This document shows positions 13,217 to 63,276 of a stretch of DNA of 64,000 bases, one piece after another; the stretch's first letter is position 1; each line of letters begins with the position of its first letter. Below the pieces are notes generated by a model. That model was not told where the DNA came from. It did not search any database and saw only the letters and a program-made list of their open reading frames with translations. Both the position numbers and the translations under genes were made by a program. This DNA comes from Bacteroidota bacterium (GTDB lineage: Bacteria; Bacteroidota; Bacteroidia; Chitinophagales; Chitinophagaceae), in assembly GCA_016868455.1 (NCBI GenBank), contig VGGV01000010.1, positions 1-64,000 on the forward strand. The letters are read 5' to 3'.

Positions 13217-13276
13217 CCTCACCCCTGCCTGCCTGCCGGCAGGCCCAGCCCCTCTCTATAAATGGAGAGGGGAGTA
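13217..13276. repeat. Composite palindromic repeat (families B and C)
   Basis: It begins with a CCTCACCCC word, has a perfect GCCTGCCGGCAGGC palindrome at 13231-13244, then CCCCTCTCTATAAATGGAGAGGGG. The outer part matches the elements at 15227, 62676 and 62912; the inner palindrome matches the one at 52779. It sits just after the terminator and 9 bp before the stop of the NRAMP-type gene. Confidence 0.75.
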
Positions 13277-13285
13277 GTTGCCGTG

Positions 13286-14521
13286 TTAATAAAATTCCCG
13301 GATGCTTTGCTGAATAGTGAGGATGCTCATCCACGTCATAAGCGCCACAACAAGCCAGCCGCTGATGTACATCCAGAGCGGATGTTTATAAGAAGGAAAC
13401 AGTTTTTTCTTTGTAACGGCAATCAGCATAATCGTCAGTGCCACCGGCAGAATCAATCCGTTCAATATACCCGCCATCACCAGAATAGCAGAAGGTGTTT
13501 GCCGGAGTGTAATAAACATAAGAGCGGAGAAAAGGATAAACCCGGAAATTATCCAGCGTTGATTTTTTCCCAGTGCGGGGCTGAATGTTTTCCAGAAAGA
13601 AACCGAGGTGAACGATGCCCCGATTACAGAAGTAATGGCTGCGCACCAGAGCACCACTCCAAAAAACTTATATCCTGCATTGCCCGCCGCAATCTGAAAT
13701 ACCGAAGCTGCGGGATTTTTTTCTGCCAGCGCCGCCCCGCTCCACACCACTCCCAATGCCGCCAGAAACAATATATAGCGCATGATAGCCGTAACGATGA
13801 TGCCGGTAACGGAGCTTTTGTTTACCTGCGGAATGGCGGCCACTCCTTTTACATTTGCATCCAGCAAGCGATGCGCACCCGCAAAACTGATATAACCCCC
13901 CACGGTACCGCCCACCAGCGCCACAATCATTTTCACATCAATTTCTTTGGGCCAGAATGTGTGTTCAATTGCTTTCGCATAAGGTGGGTGCGAAGCAAAC
14001 ATAACATAAAGCGTAAGCCCGATCATGGCAGCGCCAAGAATCTTTACAAACAGGTCAATGGCTTTGCCTGCTTCTTTTGTCCAGAATATGATTAAGGCGA
14101 TAATACAACTGACCGCCGCTCCCCATTTTGCATCCATGCCGGTAAGCACCTCGAGGCCAAGACCGCAACCTGCAATATTGCCTACATTGAATGCCAGGCC
14201 ACCGAAGGCCACCAATGCCGCCAGTACATAACCAAGACCCGGCCACAACCGGTTCGACAAATCCTGGGCCCTGTTTTCGCTGACGGTAATGATGCGCCAG
14301 ATATTGAGCTGGGCGCCGATATCAATGATAACAGAAATAAGAATAACGAAGCCAAAACCGGTAAGCAGTTGCTGTGTAAAAACGCTGGTGTTGTTTAAAA
14401 ATCCCGGGCCAATGGCCGAGGTGGCCATGAGAAAGGCTGCACCTAATATAGGGCCTCCCCAACCCCTCCGGAGGAGGGGCTTATGAAGACTTTGGTTCAC
14501 CGGAGATTGGTCACTTGCCAT
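13286..14521 (-). CDS. ycsG: NRAMP-family transporter of the YcsG type (5-oxoproline locus)
   Basis: 411 residues from the ATG at 14521, which overlaps the pxpA stop by 11 bp; the upstream in-frame ATG at 14584 would give a 74-bp overlap. About eleven TM helices follow, starting GAAFLMATSAIGPGFLNNTS, a TM1 motif of the NRAMP superfamily. The DPGN metal motif of true Mn/Fe transporters is replaced by GPGF, as in YcsG-like members that lie with 5-oxoprolinase genes in Bacillus, so the substrate may be an organic acid or ammonium. Residues about 10-23 (SLHKPLLRRGWGGP) derive from a palindromic repeat inserted in frame ahead of TM1. Confidence 0.8.
   Translation of the reverse strand: MASDQSPVNQSLHKPLLRRGWGGPILGAAFLMATSAIGPGFLNNTSVFTQQLLTGFGFVILISVIIDIGAQLNIWRIITVSENRAQDLSNRLWPGLGYVLAALVAFGGLAFNVGNIAGCGLGLEVLTGMDAKWGAAVSCIIALIIFWTKEAGKAIDLFVKILGAAMIGLTLYVMFASHPPYAKAIEHTFWPKEIDVKMIVALVGGTVGGYISFAGAHRLLDANVKGVAAIPQVNKSSVTGIIVTAIMRYILFLAALGVVWSGAALAEKNPAASVFQIAAGNAGYKFFGVVLWCAAITSVIGASFTSVSFWKTFSPALGKNQRWIISGFILFSALMFITLRQTPSAILVMAGILNGLILPVALTIMLIAVTKKKLFPSYKHPLWMYISGWLVVALMTWMSILTIQQSIREFY
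14454..14492. repeat. Palindromic repeat family A, inside the NRAMP-type gene
   Basis: The core is CCCCTCCGGAGGAGGGG followed by CTTATGAAGACTTT. The copy at 33864-33903 in polA has the same core and the same GAAGACT tail. Here it encodes residues about 10-23 of the transporter on the opposite strand. Confidence 0.7.
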
Positions 14522-15296
14522 TATCCCCTGTTTTGATAGCTTCATGAATTGCTTTTGCAAATTCAACCGCATGTTTACCATCACCGTGTATACAGATGGT
14601 TTCGGCGAGAACCGGAATTTCTTTCCCTGACAGGCTGGTTACTGTTCCCCGGTTCAGCATCTGCATTGCCTGCTTTACTGCGTCAGTTGTTTTTTCAATC
14701 ATTGCACCGGGTTCAGAACGGGGAGTTAATGAACCGTCATCCCGGTAAGTACGGTCGGCAAATACCTCGCTGGCGGTTTTAAGTCCAAGCATTTTGGCCT
14801 CACTGATGGAATAGCTGCCGCTTAATCCATAGAGCACAAGACCGCTGTCAAAATCCATCACGGCCCTTGCAATTATATTGGCTGTTAAAGCATCCCTTGC
14901 TGATAGATTGTACAGAGCGCCATGGGGTTTTACATGGTGGAGTTTTGCTCCGCAATGGTCTGCCACCTCTTTCAGTATGATCAGTTGCTGGATTATCAGT
15001 TCATACAATTCCTGTACCGGCAGGTTCATTTCCGTTCTTCCAAAATTTTCCCTGTCTTGAAATGAAGGGTGCGCCCCGACAGCCACACCATATTTTAAGC
15101 ACAACTGAATTGTTTGTTCCATGATGGCAGCATTACCGGCATGATAGCCGCAGGCAATATTTGCAGCCTGTATATACGGCATCAGCAATTCATCATTGCC
15201 GGTGCCTTCGCCCATATCGCAATTGACCTCACCCCTGACCCCTCTCCATTCATGGAGCGGGGAGGTTGTGGGAGTATTTTTTGCTTCATTATTCAC
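14511..15296 (-). CDS. pxpA: 5-oxoprolinase subunit A (LamB/YcsF family)
   Basis: 261 residues. The LamB/YcsF fold is shown by VNCDMGEG at residue 24, IACGYHAGN, VGAHPSFQD, HVKPHGALYN and the C-terminal CIHGDGKHAVEFA. PxpA with PxpB and PxpC opens 5-oxoproline to glutamate using ATP. The start overlaps the end of pxpC by 4 bp (ATGA), so translation is probably coupled. Residues about 9-23 (PTTSPLHEWRGVRGE) are an in-frame palindromic repeat; homologues begin directly before NCDMGEG. Confidence 0.93.
   Translation of the reverse strand: MNNEAKNTPTTSPLHEWRGVRGEVNCDMGEGTGNDELLMPYIQAANIACGYHAGNAAIMEQTIQLCLKYGVAVGAHPSFQDRENFGRTEMNLPVQELYELIIQQLIILKEVADHCGAKLHHVKPHGALYNLSARDALTANIIARAVMDFDSGLVLYGLSGSYSISEAKMLGLKTASEVFADRTYRDDGSLTPRSEPGAMIEKTTDAVKQAMQMLNRGTVTSLSGKEIPVLAETICIHGDGKHAVEFAKAIHEAIKTGDNGK
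15227..15272. repeat. Palindromic repeat family B, inside pxpA
   Basis: The stem CCCCTCTCCATTCATGGAGCGGGG is next to CCTCACCCCTGA. Read in the pxpA sense it gives SPLHEWRGVRGE, in the same codon phase as the copies inside the amidase gene at 62676 and 62912. Confidence 0.75.
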
Positions 15297-16273
15297 CCAT
15301 TGAAATATTGTTGCAGCCTGAAAGTACAGGCATTTCGTAATTGCTGCAAATGTTGTTGCTGCTGCAGGTACAGGTTTTCAGCAATGGCCTGCTCGGTTAT
15401 ACGGAACTGAATTTTATCACCTGCCCTCCGTTGCGCCAGTTTTGAATGATGCGCTGTTATTGCATGGGCAATCCGGGGATAGCCTCCGGTGGTCTGGTGA
15501 TCTGCCATGAGTATAATGAGCTTGCCGTCGGGCAATAACTGCACCGTGCCAAAACTGACGGCAGAAGAAACCAGTTCTTCATTGGTCATTGCCGGAAGCG
15601 GAATATTGTTCAGCCGGTAGCCCATGCGGTCAGATTGCTGTGTTATGACAAAGGAGGTCATCGTGAAATTTTCTTTTGACTCTGTGGTGAGCCGGTGCCA
15701 CTCATGGCCGGGCAGCACCCATATTTCATTCGGGATATCCTCTCTTTGGTCGTCGGCTTTCCATGGCAGCACTATAAATTCAGATTGTCCGGGTGTGGAG
15801 GGAAAAGACTGGCAAAGCAGTATCTCATCCCCTTTTTGCAGGTTACGGCCATGGCAGCCTCCGGCTTTTGCTTTCAGGTTGGTGCTGTAGCTGCCCAGCC
15901 ATTTACTAATGTCAAGGCCGCCTGCTATGGCCAGGTAAGCTCTTGCGCCATATACCGGCCTGTGAAATTGCAGCACATCATTTTTATTTACCCATACAGG
16001 ATGCAGATGTGCAACAGGGTCACCATTGATGGTAGCTGAAAAATCTGCCCCGCTTATGGCTATTAATGCCGGGTAGCCAAATAAAAAAACTGAAGCGGGA
16101 AAGTGCATTTCTATCACGGCTTCTTCGGGGTGGTTGCCCACCAGTGCATTGGCAATATACATGGCATATTTATCCATGGCGCCGGAAGGGTTGATCCCCA
16201 GGTGCTGGTAGCCGAAGCGGCCACCATCCTGTACGGTGTCCAGTATACCGGCTTTGATGATTTGTATACTCAT
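15293..16273 (-). CDS. pxpC: 5-oxoprolinase subunit C (biotin-dependent carboxyltransferase family)
   Basis: 326 residues. The family start IIKAGILDTVQDGGRFGYQH is complete, followed by GINPSGAMDKYA, ISGADFSATINGDPV, YLAIAGGLDI and the C-terminal MADHQTTGGYPRIAH. This is the AHS2/KipA family, the partner of PxpB. It overlaps pxpB by 4 bp and pxpA by 4 bp, a tight operon order B-C-A. A Gln-rich tail (LQQQQHLQQLRN) extends slightly past the usual family end. Confidence 0.93.
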   Translation of the reverse strand: MSIQIIKAGILDTVQDGGRFGYQHLGINPSGAMDKYAMYIANALVGNHPEEAVIEMHFPASVFLFGYPALIAISGADFSATINGDPVAHLHPVWVNKNDVLQFHRPVYGARAYLAIAGGLDISKWLGSYSTNLKAKAGGCHGRNLQKGDEILLCQSFPSTPGQSEFIVLPWKADDQREDIPNEIWVLPGHEWHRLTTESKENFTMTSFVITQQSDRMGYRLNNIPLPAMTNEELVSSAVSFGTVQLLPDGKLIILMADHQTTGGYPRIAHAITAHHSKLAQRRAGDKIQFRITEQAIAENLYLQQQQHLQQLRNACTFRLQQYFNG

Positions 16274-16308
16274 GTATCTCCCTGACTACTCTCTTTAAGG
16301 AGAGCGGA
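16268..16308. repeat. Decayed family-B palindrome at the pxpB 3' end
   Basis: Read on the minus strand, ACTCCGCTCTCC, a short loop, GAGAG and AGTCAGGGAG follow the same order as in the family-B copies at 62912. It encodes the last residues of PxpB (SALLKESSQGD), in the same codon phase as the other copies. It is shorter and more diverged, so the assignment is tentative. Confidence 0.45.
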
Positions 16309-32886: not shown

Positions 32887-35754
32887 ATGGCTGAAAAAAA
32901 ACTATTCCTGCTTGACGCATTTGCCCTCGTATTCCGGGCCTATTATGCACTTATCCGCAACCCGCGGATTACTTCGAAAGGCAAAAACACCAACGCACAA
33001 TTTGGTTTTACCAACACTTTAGTTGAGTTGCTGAACAAACAAAAGCCAACCCATATGGCTGTTTGTTTTGATACGGCAGCACCGACTGAACGTCACACCG
33101 ATTTCGAGGACTACAAGGCCAACCGGCAGGAAACACCGGAAGATATTTCCGCAGCGGTACCGGATATTCAAAAAATCATTGCGGGTTTTAATATCCCCAT
33201 CATGGCGGTGGATGGCTATGAAGCCGATGATGTGATTGGCACATTGGCGAAGCAGGCGGAAAAAAAAGGATACGAAGTTTTTATGGTTACGCCGGATAAA
33301 GATTATGGCCAGTTGGTCTCCAAAAAAATAAAAATATATAAACCGGCTTACCAGGGAAATGATGTGGAAATAATGGGCCCCGAGGAAGTATGTACAAAGT
33401 GGAATATCAAAAGTGTTGACCAGGTTATTGATATGCTGGGTATGATGGGTGATTCGGTTGATAATATACCCGGTATACCCGGTGTGGGTGAAAAAACTGC
33501 AGCAAAGTTTTTAGCGGAGTATGGTTCACTGGAGAACACATTAAAAAATGCGGATAATATTAAAGGGGCAATGGGCGAAAAAGTGAAGAAAGGAAAAGAG
33601 ATGGCCATTCTTTCAAAAAAATTAGCAACGATAATGACCAATGCCCCGGTTGAGTTTCATGTAGAAGATTTTAAGGTAAAAGAATGGGATAAAGAAAAGC
33701 TGAAACAGGTTTTTGCCGAGCTGGAATTTAAAACATTGGGTAAAAGATTACTGGGCGAAGATTTTTCAATTGCTGCAACAAATAATGAGTTTATAAAAAA
33801 AGAACAGCCCCGGGGACTGCAGACAGATTTGTTCGGGAATATCATTGAAGAGCCGAAGGCCGCTTCTCCCGGCTCCTCCGAAGGAGGGGTTTTGGAAGAC
33901 TCTGACAGTGCGGAAGCCGGCTTAAGAGTTGATAAAAACATTAATAACACTCCTCACAAATACGAAGCGGTAACTGCGGATGCTGCCATAAAGAAACTAG
34001 TTACTGAACTGAAAAAGCAGGATGAAATATGTTTTGATACGGAAACAACCGGAATTGATGCGAATGATGCGGAGCTGGTGGGTTTCAGCTTTTCCATCAA
34101 GCCGGGTGAAGCCTACTATATTCCCTGCCCTTCTGACCAAAAAAAAACAAAAGAGATACTGGCACAGTTTGAACCCCTGTTTGCTGATAAAAAGAAAACC
34201 TGGGTGGGCCAGAATATCAAATATGATATGCTGGTGCTGAAATGGTATGGCATTGAAATAGCCGGTAATTTATTTGATACCATGCTGGCGCATTACGTAA
34301 TCGAGCCCGATGGTAAAAGAGGTATGGATGATTTAAGTGCAAAATATCTGGGCTATGAGCCGGTGCATATTGAAGAGTTAATTGGGAAAAACGGAAAGAA
34401 CCAGGGCAATATGCGGGATGTGGAACTGGGAAAAATCAAAGAATATGCCGGGGAAGATGCAGACATAACCCTGCAGCTGAAGAATGTTTTTCTCCCGATG
34501 CTGAAGAAGAAAGAAGTAGAGAAGGTTTTTTATGATGTGGAGAATCCGCTGGTGAAAGTGCTGACCGATATGGAATATGAAGGGGTGATGATTGATGAAG
34601 CGTTTTTGAAAGATTATTCAAAAGAACTGGAAAAAGATGCTAAGAAAGCAGAAGAAAGTGTTTACAAACAGGCTGGGGTCCGCTTCAACCTTGCATCACC
34701 CAAACAATTAGGCGAAGTTTTGTTTGATAAATTAAAGCTTGACCCTTCAGCCAAAAAAACAAAGACGGGACAATACCAGACCGGCGAAGACGTGCTGCTG
34801 AAGCTGGCCGCCAAAGGCAACCCGATTGTGGATGACATTCTTGCTTTCCGGGAACTAACCAAGCTTAAATCAACTTATGTTGATTCTTTGCCATTGCTGG
34901 TAAATAAAAAAACCGGCAGGGTACATACTACATACGGACAGGCGGTAGCCGTAACGGGAAGGCTTGCAAGTAACAATCCCAACCTGCAGAATATCCCGGT
35001 AAGAACAGAAAGGGGAAAAGAAATCCGTAAAGCATTTATTCCAAGAGATAATAAGCATATATTACTTTCTGCTGATTATTCTCAAATTGAATTGCGTATT
35101 GTTGCTGCCATAAGTGGGGACAAGAATATGTGCAAAGCTTTTAAAGACGGCACAGATATACATACTGCCACTGCATCAAGAGTATATAATGTGGCAGAAC
35201 AAGATGTAACCAAAGAAATGCGCTACAAAGCCAAGAGTGTAAACTTTGGAATCATTTACGGGCAGGGCGCATTTGGCCTTGCTGATAATTTAGGTATTTC
35301 AAGAACTGAAGCCAAACAAATCATTGATAATTATAAAAAAGAATTCTCCCGCATACAGAAGTATATGGACGATACGATCAACTTTGCCCGGGAACATGGT
35401 TATGTGCAAACTATTATGGGGCGAAAAAGATGGTTGCGGGACATTAACTCGGCCAACTTCACCGTTCGTGGGTTTGCCGAACGAAATGCCATCAACTCTC
35501 CCATACAGGGCACTGCCGCAGATATGATAAAACTGGCCATGCAAAAAGTGCATGCTGCCATGAAGAAAGAAAAAATGCAGAGCAAGATGATCCTGCAGGT
35601 GCATGATGAGCTGGTGTTTGATGCTGTGAAAGGAGAAGCGAAAGAACTGAAGCCTTTAATTATTGAGTGTATGCAGAATGCCATGCCGCTACCCAACAAA
35701 GTACCGGTGATAGCTGAATGCGGCGAAGGGAAAAACTGGCTGGAGGCGCATTAA
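32887..35754 (+). CDS. polA: DNA polymerase I
   Basis: 955 residues. Residues 1-290 are the 5'-3' exonuclease (DAFALVFRAYYAL, VDGYEADDVIGTLA, GIPGVGEKTAAKFL). The 3'-5' exonuclease (about 365-540) keeps its acidic set: CFDTETTG, GQNIKYDML and YAGEDADI, so proofreading is probably active. The polymerase has motif A DYSQIELR, motif B RYKAKSVNFGIIYG and motif C VHDELVFD. Residues about 327-340 (SPGSSEGGVLEDSD), in the linker between the two nuclease domains, come from a palindromic repeat inserted in frame. Its stop overlaps the convergent DUF5655 gene by 4 bp. Confidence 0.97.
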   Translation: MAEKKLFLLDAFALVFRAYYALIRNPRITSKGKNTNAQFGFTNTLVELLNKQKPTHMAVCFDTAAPTERHTDFEDYKANRQETPEDISAAVPDIQKIIAGFNIPIMAVDGYEADDVIGTLAKQAEKKGYEVFMVTPDKDYGQLVSKKIKIYKPAYQGNDVEIMGPEEVCTKWNIKSVDQVIDMLGMMGDSVDNIPGIPGVGEKTAAKFLAEYGSLENTLKNADNIKGAMGEKVKKGKEMAILSKKLATIMTNAPVEFHVEDFKVKEWDKEKLKQVFAELEFKTLGKRLLGEDFSIAATNNEFIKKEQPRGLQTDLFGNIIEEPKAASPGSSEGGVLEDSDSAEAGLRVDKNINNTPHKYEAVTADAAIKKLVTELKKQDEICFDTETTGIDANDAELVGFSFSIKPGEAYYIPCPSDQKKTKEILAQFEPLFADKKKTWVGQNIKYDMLVLKWYGIEIAGNLFDTMLAHYVIEPDGKRGMDDLSAKYLGYEPVHIEELIGKNGKNQGNMRDVELGKIKEYAGEDADITLQLKNVFLPMLKKKEVEKVFYDVENPLVKVLTDMEYEGVMIDEAFLKDYSKELEKDAKKAEESVYKQAGVRFNLASPKQLGEVLFDKLKLDPSAKKTKTGQYQTGEDVLLKLAAKGNPIVDDILAFRELTKLKSTYVDSLPLLVNKKTGRVHTTYGQAVAVTGRLASNNPNLQNIPVRTERGKEIRKAFIPRDNKHILLSADYSQIELRIVAAISGDKNMCKAFKDGTDIHTATASRVYNVAEQDVTKEMRYKAKSVNFGIIYGQGAFGLADNLGISRTEAKQIIDNYKKEFSRIQKYMDDTINFAREHGYVQTIMGRKRWLRDINSANFTVRGFAERNAINSPIQGTAADMIKLAMQKVHAAMKKEKMQSKMILQVHDELVFDAVKGEAKELKPLIIECMQNAMPLPNKVPVIAECGEGKNWLEAH
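33864..33903. repeat. Palindromic repeat family A, inside polA
   Basis: The core CTCCTCCGAAGGAGGGG and the following TTTTGGAAGACTCT align base by base with the copy at 14454-14492, about 80% identical by eye over 37 positions. It adds about 13 residues to a flexible linker. Confidence 0.7.
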
Positions 35755-45710: not shown

Positions 45711-45726
45711 CCCCTCCCCGGAGGGG
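45711..45726. repeat. Short perfect GC palindrome
   Basis: CCCCTCCCCGGAGGGG lies in the gap between the helicase and acylase genes. The core resembles the family-A palindrome (CCCCTCCGGAGGAGGGG). Confidence 0.5.
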
Positions 45727-45738
45727 ATGGAGATTCCA

Positions 45739-62409: not shown

Positions 62410-63276
62410 ATGAATTCCACTCTTTCTATCACTATTATTCAACCGAATCTTTACTGGGAAAACAAAACTGCCAACCTTAAAATGCTGGAGGGGAAAATTT
62501 TCAGTATAAAGGAAAAAACGGAAGTGGTGGTATTGCCCGAAATGTTCAGCACCGGTTTTAGCATGAAACCGGAACCATTGGCTGAAACTATGGAAGGAGA
62601 AACAGTGCAATGGATGAAAAAAGTGGCTCAAAAGAAGAATATCATATTAACGGGGAGTATGATTATTAAAGAGCCGGCTCCCCCTCTCCACCATGTGGAG
62701 AGGGGGCCGGGGGGTGAGGTCTTTTTCAACCGCCTTATCTGGATGCAGCCCAACGGGCAATACGGCATGTATGACAAGCGGCATTGCTTTGCTTTTGCCG
62801 GGGAAAACGAACATTATACTCCGGGTTCAAAAAGGCTGATTGCTTCTGTAATGGGATGGAAAATTAATTTGCAGATTTGTTATGATTTGAGATTCCCGGT
62901 GTGGAGCCGCCAAACTCCCCCTCTCCGTAGGATGGAGAGGGGGTCAGGGGGTGAGGAATACGATGTGCTGATTTATGTGGCCAACTGGCCCGAAAGAAGA
63001 AGCCATGCCTGGAAAACTCTGCTGCAGGCAAGGTCTATCGAAAACCAATGCTATGTGATTGGTGTAAACCGTGTGGGCAAAGATGGCAACGGTATTTATC
63101 ACAGCGGCGACAGCATGATTATTGACCCGGTGGGAGAAGTGTTGTACTCCAAAAAAGATGAAGAAGATATTTTTACAACCACCCTGGATAAAAATTACCT
63201 GAACAGCATAAGGGAAAAATTTCCTGCCCTGAAAGATGCGGACAGGTTTTTAATTCTCAATGATGACGAAGATTAA
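62410..63276 (+). CDS. Nitrilase-superfamily amidase (YafV/omega-amidase type)
   Basis: 288 residues. The catalytic triad is present: Glu in VLPEMFSTGF, Lys in MYDKRHCFAF and Cys in LQICYDLRFPVWS. YafV/omega-amidase relatives hydrolyse alpha-keto acid amides and related compounds in metabolite repair. Two inserts of about 14 residues, PAPPLHHVERGPGG (about residues 91-104) and TPPLRRMERGSGGE (about 169-182), are encoded by palindromic repeats. They lie in loops, in frame, the second one directly after the Cys motif, and the protein is otherwise intact. Confidence 0.9.
   Translation: MNSTLSITIIQPNLYWENKTANLKMLEGKIFSIKEKTEVVVLPEMFSTGFSMKPEPLAETMEGETVQWMKKVAQKKNIILTGSMIIKEPAPPLHHVERGPGGEVFFNRLIWMQPNGQYGMYDKRHCFAFAGENEHYTPGSKRLIASVMGWKINLQICYDLRFPVWSRQTPPLRRMERGSGGEEYDVLIYVANWPERRSHAWKTLLQARSIENQCYVIGVNRVGKDGNGIYHSGDSMIIDPVGEVLYSKKDEEDIFTTTLDKNYLNSIREKFPALKDADRFLILNDDED
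62676..62722. repeat. Palindromic repeat family B, first copy in the amidase gene
   Basis: CCCCCTCTCCACC and GGTGG-like words pair as CTCTCCAC / GTGGAGAG, followed by GGGGGCCGGGGGGTGAGG. The length of about 42-45 bp keeps the frame. Confidence 0.8.
62912..62958. repeat. Palindromic repeat family B, second copy in the amidase gene
   Basis: CCCCCTCTCCGTAGGATGGAGAGGGGG forms the hairpin, followed by TCAGGGGGTGAGG. It is about 80% alike with the first copy 236 bp upstream and in the same codon phase. Confidence 0.8.

Follow-up and report, generated by a model that had tools for sequence, protein, structure and literature searches.

Two in-frame palindromes in a Chitinophagaceae amidase gene as probable solo ends of a DUF559 endonuclease cassette

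Homing endonuclease genes carried by inteins or introns lie within conserved genes and have empty alleles in relatives. Rickettsia palindromic elements (RPEs), whose length is put at 105 to 146 bp (PMC2229807), are palindromes translated in frame within conserved protein genes, and they are described as tolerated and near-neutral (PMC2229807, PMC3733652). Some GTAG/CGTC REPs also lie in frame in genes, tRNA synthetases included (PMC3733652). VsrA of Caulobacter, a DUF559/Vsr-like protein, is given a predicted role in mismatch repair in PMC12907096, a text in which "palindrom" has no occurrence.

We analyzed a 64,000-nucleotide stretch of a Chitinophagaceae genome (the window) in which an amidase gene carries two copies of a short palindromic repeat. 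Like RPEs, this repeat is a palindrome found in frame within conserved genes, but it is 42 bp long, has another sequence, is linked to an endonuclease gene, and occurs in another phylum, the nearest named amidase homologues being from Chitinophagaceae. Membership in the Rickettsia elements, to which a preliminary description of the locus had likened the repeat, is unsupported. The arrangement shares with the GTAG/CGTC REP-RAYT system (REPtron) short dispersed hairpins, some of them in frame in genes, and a small nuclease gene with these hairpins on either side. It differs in that the nuclease is DUF559 (PD-(D/E)XK) rather than a Y1 tyrosine transposase, that no GTAG/CGTC tag is seen by eye, and that the nuclease gene itself can sit in frame in a host gene. 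The DUF559 gene, which encodes the same Pfam domain as VsrA, resembles a homing endonuclease gene in being inserted in conserved genes that have empty alleles in relatives (cinA and leuS). However, no intein or intron was found, the insertions in leuS, cinA, metH, and hsdR are plain in-frame ones, and the cassette ends are palindromes that also occur alone. The amidase inserts are probably best read as right-hand ends, occurring solo, of a mobile cassette that is bounded by palindromes and encodes a small Vsr-like PD-(D/E)XK enzyme, the DUF559 (PF04480) endonuclease.

The amidase gene and its two inserts

The amidase open reading frame (ORF) encodes a CN_hydrolase domain (Pfam, 1.2e-35) and scores 243.4 bits against NCBIfam PRK10438, slightly below the cut-off of 249; we take YafV to be the name given to an amidase near PRK10438. 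Coordinates of the gene and of the repeat copies in the window are collected in the table.

Table. Position of the amidase gene and of repeat copies in the window
Feature	Coordinates	Strand	Description
CN_hydrolase amidase gene (YafV/PRK10438-like), host of two in-frame palindromes	62410..63276	+	288 aa; ORF, Pfam, and NCBIfam
Probable solo end 1	62678..62719	+	Translated PPLHHVERGPGGE; loop 1 lengthened from 14 (44/46 homologues) to 27 residues
Probable solo end 2	62915..62956	+	Translated PPLRRMERGSGGE; variable loop beginning ~12 residues past Cys157
pxpA copy	15227..15265	-	N-terminus, same phase as amidase copies, ahead of conserved domain
Probable decayed copy, pxpB C-terminus	about 16270..16300	-	By eye
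Intergenic copy	13217..13272	-	Second palindrome nested between hairpin and tail, by eye

The repeat has the architecture CCCCTCTCC-loop-GGAGAGGGG-nn-GGGGTGAGG. As the preliminary description had proposed, two palindromes lie in frame within the amidase and represent one repeat in one codon phase: the copies are 42 nt each, are 81% identical, and are both translated as ..PPL...ERGxGGE, starting at residues 91 and 170. Five of the six frames of these copies are open, the sixth being closed by the TGA of GGTGAGG.

We aligned the amidase with homologues from 46 of 80 loci, mostly Chitinophagaceae and other Bacteroidota according to record titles. Loop 1 has 19 residues in the 2 of these 46 named homologues that depart from the usual length. 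Loop 2 ranges from 17 to 71 residues and has 29 here, and because its length varies in the family, the second insert is the less clean case. Homologues sharing the insert peptides, which the preliminary description had set against its own reading, were absent for loop 1 (0 of 46), and similar-looking, repeat-like peptides (SPPQLRERGPGAG and TSPSSPLSQGEEGKG) were present in loop 2 of two other Chitinophagaceae (L184 and L185). In another amidase alignment no relative had the same peptides, and some relatives of the same genus had different insertions in the same two loops, indicating that both loops are permissive.

An AlphaFold2 model of the amidase (47 sequences) had a mean pLDDT of 89.2. The blocks holding the inserts scored 59 (residues 91 to 100) and 49 (residues 171 to 180) and are thus low-confidence loops; insert 1 was placed between two strands and insert 2 in a region lacking secondary structure. 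In the alignment with 2e11_A, the closest solved chain, insert 1 coincides with a 13-residue gap and insert 2 with one of 4 residues. That both inserts are in frame and free of stops could suggest that the peptides were selected for changing amidase activity or assembly. We consider this most improbable given the low confidence of the modeled loops, the other insertions that relatives have in them, and the occurrence of the same repeat in unrelated genes. Most likely, the inserts are tolerated passengers in two disordered loops.

Repeat copies in the genome and genus and their reading phase

Within the window, GGAGAGGGGG with at most one mismatch had 9 matches against 2.8 expected, and none of 100 shuffles reached 9. 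Of the further copies listed in the preliminary description, the intergenic one was confirmed, and the decayed one in pxpB is plausible by eye. The pxpA copy is real and in the amidase phase, but it lies outside the PxpA domain, which begins at residue 23 (Pfam); given this location, it is either an N-terminal extension or upstream of another start. The broader suggestion of a tolerated dispersed palindrome stands insofar as the repeat sits translated in several conserved genes; it missed the main point, that the hairpin corresponds to the end of a putative DUF559 cassette. The window has, in addition, a CCCCTCC/GGAGGGG hairpin at 14463-14479, in the first codons of the ORF at 13286-14584 (reading KPLLRRGWGG), and two more short C-rich/G-rich hairpins at 45711-45727 and 33875-33887.

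A stem-arm-plus-tail pattern gave 24 matches in the source genome (2.64 Mb), corresponding to 19 sites (five matches overlap) and, once L034, which lacks the 5' arm, was dropped, to 18 hairpin-bearing sites; the reversed control pattern gave 0 matches in the same genome. A stricter pattern found 77 copies in 15 of 42 genomes of the genus, with 1 match for its reversed control. Eight of the 18 source-genome sites lie inside genes supported by Pfam or NCBIfam: those for HolB, GSCFA, a formyltransferase, PxpA (N-terminus), the amidase (twice), a dihydroorotase, and a GH43 protein (between domains). ORFs of at least 180 aa cover 72 to 88% of the three stretches considered, so the excess of copies within genes that the preliminary description had anticipated is not borne out. 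Two solo sites are common to two species, one in HolB (G000 and G009) and one in an acetyltransferase (G049 and G009). Rfam had 0 matches in three loci examined.

Reading phase was tabulated for copies within genes. From 84 copies examined, 25 passed an open-frame and coding-score filter. We dropped L025 and two L107 copies (without a Pfam match), L133 (ahead of the domain), L147 (without the 5' arm), L135 and L138 (orthologous to L011 and L126), and a LeuRS copy that is a cassette end, and we added PxpA, which is below the score filter but has a Pfam domain, giving 18 copies. In two members, PxpA and the acetyltransferase L126, the start of the Pfam match coincides with the insert or follows it; the insert in L031 separates two domains. 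Owing to the variable loop length, the 5' arm of the repeat was misaligned by MAFFT. Eleven of the 18 copies are read in the amidase phase (binomial P 1.6e-4 against one in five open frames), four in the other same-strand phase, and three on the opposite strand, so that 15 are on the same strand (P 2.1e-4 against two in five). The phase of the repeat is biased, not fixed; survival in a single phase, as had been supposed, is correct only as a preference.

The source genome has 15 sites with a second end type (CCCCC..GGGGG..GGGGG). At eight of them the frame is open and has a coding-like character to either side of the end, with PPxGG..GA being read at five of the eight; host frames were compared with Pfam for cinA and LeuRS. 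The reading PPxGG..GA of these single ends is also that of the right end of the cinA cassette in the source genome.

DUF559 genes and their paired palindromic ends

The amidase repeat matches, in sequence, the ends of DUF559 cassettes in relatives; in many of these cassettes, one and the same palindrome is found at either end, in inverted orientation. One LeuRS ORF of 1180 aa, in the relative G001, contains four repeats and a DUF559 domain. Distances between copies and genes were computed with 33 strong DUF559 and 35 strong Y1_Tnp matches in the genus: 5 of the 77 copies have a DUF559 match no more than 200 bp away, against 0.015 expected.

Flanks of DUF559 matches were searched for hairpins with a pyrimidine 5' arm and a stem of at least 5, within 200 bp of the domain. 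This pyrimidine-arm criterion was chosen after reading the genus flanks and was left unchanged for the phylum and plasmid loci, so that these two sets alone are independent. In the genus, where 30 of 38 matches were used, hairpins were present on both sides at 16 of 26 strong loci (16 of all 30) and on at least one side at 23 of 26. In the phylum, where DUF559 matches occur in 78 of 148 sampled genomes, we took the best 29 of at least 134 strong matches listed and dropped 2 with short flanks; both sides had hairpins at 17 of the remaining 27 loci and at least one side at 24. For plasmids (8 loci opened, of 42 records, 25 of them among the matches listed), the counts were 7 of 8 and 8 of 8, respectively. 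The plasmid loci are from Cyanobacteria (Synechocystis, Picosynechococcus [two], and Pseudanabaena), Deinococcus (two), and Alphaproteobacteria (Azospirillum and Sphingomonas). Under the same criterion, Y1_Tnp controls gave 0 of 27 on both sides and 0 of 27 on one side. Random positions from three pools gave fractions of 0.0000, 0.0017, and 0.0044 for both sides and 0.018, 0.031, and 0.159 for one side, the third pool consisting of sequence fetched for holding the repeat. The same loci away from the domain gave 0.000 and 0.054. A first screen for perfect stems of at least 7 did not separate DUF559 from Y1_Tnp, either on both sides (5 of 30 versus 6 of 29) or on at least one (14 of 30 versus 14 of 29).

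HMM coordinates were used to place the domain, since a DUF559-core regular expression missed 34 loci. One or both ends are present at 54 of 60 DUF559 loci, and 41 of the 60 have inverted palindromes at both. By eye, each end has two parts, a hairpin whose 5' arm is pyrimidine and, on its outer side, a second G-rich block; the left end is an inverted copy of the right. Ends are more alike within a cassette (0.41) than between cassettes (0.18; permutation P 1e-4, 41 cassettes), with only 10 of 41 right ends best matching their own left end. Similarity of ends is weakly correlated with that of the nucleases (rho 0.21, P 5e-4).

The repeats might instead be REP elements mobilized by a RAYT/TnpA-REP (Y1_Tnp) transposase. 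The source genome has two intact Y1_Tnp genes, and Y1_Tnp, above cut-off in 17 of the 42 genus genomes, is present in 12 of the 15 that carry the repeat (12 with both, 3 with the repeat only, 5 with the transposase only, and 22 with neither; Fisher P 1.8e-4, with P 0.08 among genomes of at least 2.5 Mb). This co-occurrence is non-discriminating, as a hand count for the repeat and DUF559 gives the same figures of 12, 3, 5, and 22. At closer range, none of the 77 copies is within 1.5 kb of any of 35 Y1_Tnp matches and no copy occurs in 31 Y1_Tnp loci, which makes this already disfavored alternative very unlikely. Nor was membership in the REP-with-RAYT class supported by the repeat itself: no linked Y1_Tnp gene is flanked by it, and its copies end, by eye, in TGAGG after the hairpin, with no terminal GTAG or CGTC tag. 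One Y1_Tnp gene (L155, G040:C28) is surrounded by another repeat (GCACCC..GGGTGAGG), present in five copies whose orientations are opposite on the two sides, a RAYT-like arrangement; neither CCTCAC nor GGGTGAGG occurs in the text of PMC3733652.

Another alternative treats the palindromes as a selfish repeat in their own right, mobilized by some other enzyme or through host repair; DUF559 genes would then use them as landing sites, inserting into or next to them. Consistent with it, 72 of the 77 genus copies do not lie within 200 bp of a DUF559 match, and no DUF559 gene with the end type of the amidase repeat was found in the source genome, which does have copies. The two DUF559 matches of that genome are a cinA cassette with the second end type (L264) and a truncated one on contig C11, so movement of the amidase copies would be past, or their partner lost. 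A palindrome of the GCCTGCC..GGCAGGC type is nested in repeat copies, namely the intergenic one of the window and those of L142, L143, L149, and L151; from this nesting, palindromes may serve as targets for palindromes. Ends of the same cassette, however, are inverted and more alike than ends of different cassettes, and some ends track nuclease groups. On balance we regard an independent repeat as unlikely, and prefer the reading of the palindromes as ends of DUF559 cassettes.

Cassettes in host genes and a possible mode of spread

Cassettes, as delimited by these ends, are either free-standing or in frame within conserved genes. A Sphingomonas DUF559 gene lies between sufB and sufC and one of Deinococcus psychrotolerans between paaD and paaZ; in Pseudanabaena, DUF559 is in frame inside a longer coding sequence. 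DUF559 is within an ORF of at least 350 aa for 12 of 33 strong genus matches and for 25 of 134 strong phylum matches among the matches listed. Ten long ORFs were assigned by Pfam to CinA (L264), LeuRS (L303, L305, L327, and L282), MetH (L316, L321, and L300), and HsdR (L308 and L299), and the G001 fusion to LeuRS was also seen by Pfam. DUF559 is at the same place in MetH L316 and L321, between the B12-binding_2 and B12-binding domains, and between HSDR_N and the helicase in the two HsdR proteins. No intein domain was among the Pfam matches of these 11 fusions, and L100 had no match in Rfam.

Comparison across species indicates that an empty site, a single end, and a whole cassette alternate at the same gene positions. 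The cinA site was readable by motif in 20 of 30 loci, 10 being unreadable: seven have a cassette in frame, one (G043) has a single palindrome at the same place, and 12 have neither. By eye, the single end of G043 runs into downstream sequence resembling that of the G029 cassette, which fits origin of a single end by deletion from a cassette. For LeuRS, the CP1 hinge was readable in all 30 genus sequences fetched, the second site in 29, and site 3 in 17. At the CP1 hinge, two of the genus sequences (G001 and G012) contain a cassette and the other 28 do not; the nucleases of the two are not mutual nearest relatives. G105 and G155, from another family, also have a CP1 cassette. At the second site there is a cassette in G015, a single end in G001, the source genome, and G009, a decayed one in G035, and a short linker in most; a member of another family (G132) has, by eye, a cassette near this site. 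Site 3 has single ends in G001 and the source genome and a decayed one in G047. The favored phase of the solo copies is that in which the right cassette end is read in leuS of G001, which suggests that some solo ends may be cassette remnants; the right end of the G015 LeuRS cassette is read in the other same-strand phase.

An assembly or binning artifact might be suspected, as the source assembly comprises 64 contigs and, in some relatives, cinA is divided over two contigs or more at the DUF559 site. Its probability is close to negligible: the repeat is in 15 of 42 genus genomes, two gene sites are common to different species, and complete plasmids of named strains have the same arrangement.

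In seven cinA cassettes (21 pairs), pN/pS was 0.199 for DUF559 and 0.189 for the flanking cinA; for the palindromic linkers the ratios of means were 0.354/0.45 and 0.285/0.51. Synonymous sites are near saturation (pS 0.73 and 0.69), so only the contrast between regions is meaningful. By this contrast, codons of the cinA-resident nuclease are under strong constraint, as much as those of cinA. Over the 60 DUF559 loci, E15, W19, Q35, D44, E55, D57, G58, H61, and D70 (L264 numbering) are invariant, and the catalytic-type residues D44, E55, D57, and H61 are thus present in 60 of 60. We take these residues to match the PD-(D/E)XK motif, and they are in line with a predicted working site of that type; 3hrl_A is a solved relative.

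From linkage, paired ends, three-state sites, and constraint, we infer that DUF559 is the mover. The nuclease may recognize its palindrome, as hairpin or duplex, and cut there or at the target; repair would then copy in the whole cassette or one end, much as for a homing endonuclease or a REP-mobilizing enzyme. A single end could arise by deletion from a cassette or by its own movement. Since the ends are GC-rich, have five of six frames open, and encode a polar Pro/Gly/Glu/Arg peptide, a copy inserted into a surface loop without disturbing the frame would survive. The best-supported mechanism is one in which cassette ends, either alone or together with the nuclease gene, persist wherever the frame is kept.

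The evidence leaves evenly balanced the wider proposal of a widespread bacterial mobile element, in which a DUF559 cassette homes into conserved genes without a splicing device and persists as a translated domain, its single ends being a source of GC-rich CCCC..GGGG palindromes in Bacteroidota, Cyanobacteria, and other genomes. No link of DUF559 or Vsr-like nucleases to such palindromes or to mobility was found in the literature searched, which comprised titles and the openings of abstracts, with most subscription papers and all bioRxiv preprints outside it. PADLOC gave weak matches only, and a DUF559 relative is present in 2 of 50,697 phage records. If correct, the proposal would provide a role for DUF559, a domain of unknown function that more than half of the phylum genomes sampled contain, and would identify an enzyme partner for a common class of bacterial palindromes. 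It would also mean that essential genes, leuS for example, can harbor an endonuclease gene that persists as a translated domain. Annotators should bear in mind that unusual Pro/Gly/Glu inserts, and DUF559 domains, in housekeeping enzymes may be what is left of mobile elements.

Two minor observations concern the host genes. In G001 (between contigs C27 and C75) and in G045:C39, the cinA match is interrupted at the DUF559 site or close to it, a repeated cassette having perhaps disrupted assembly there. At the LeuRS CP1 hinge, the source genome (L332, G000:C4) and L338, L334, L331, and L342 have in-frame GAGTCGT/GAGTTGT-like repeats, which are a second kind of translated repeat at this position.
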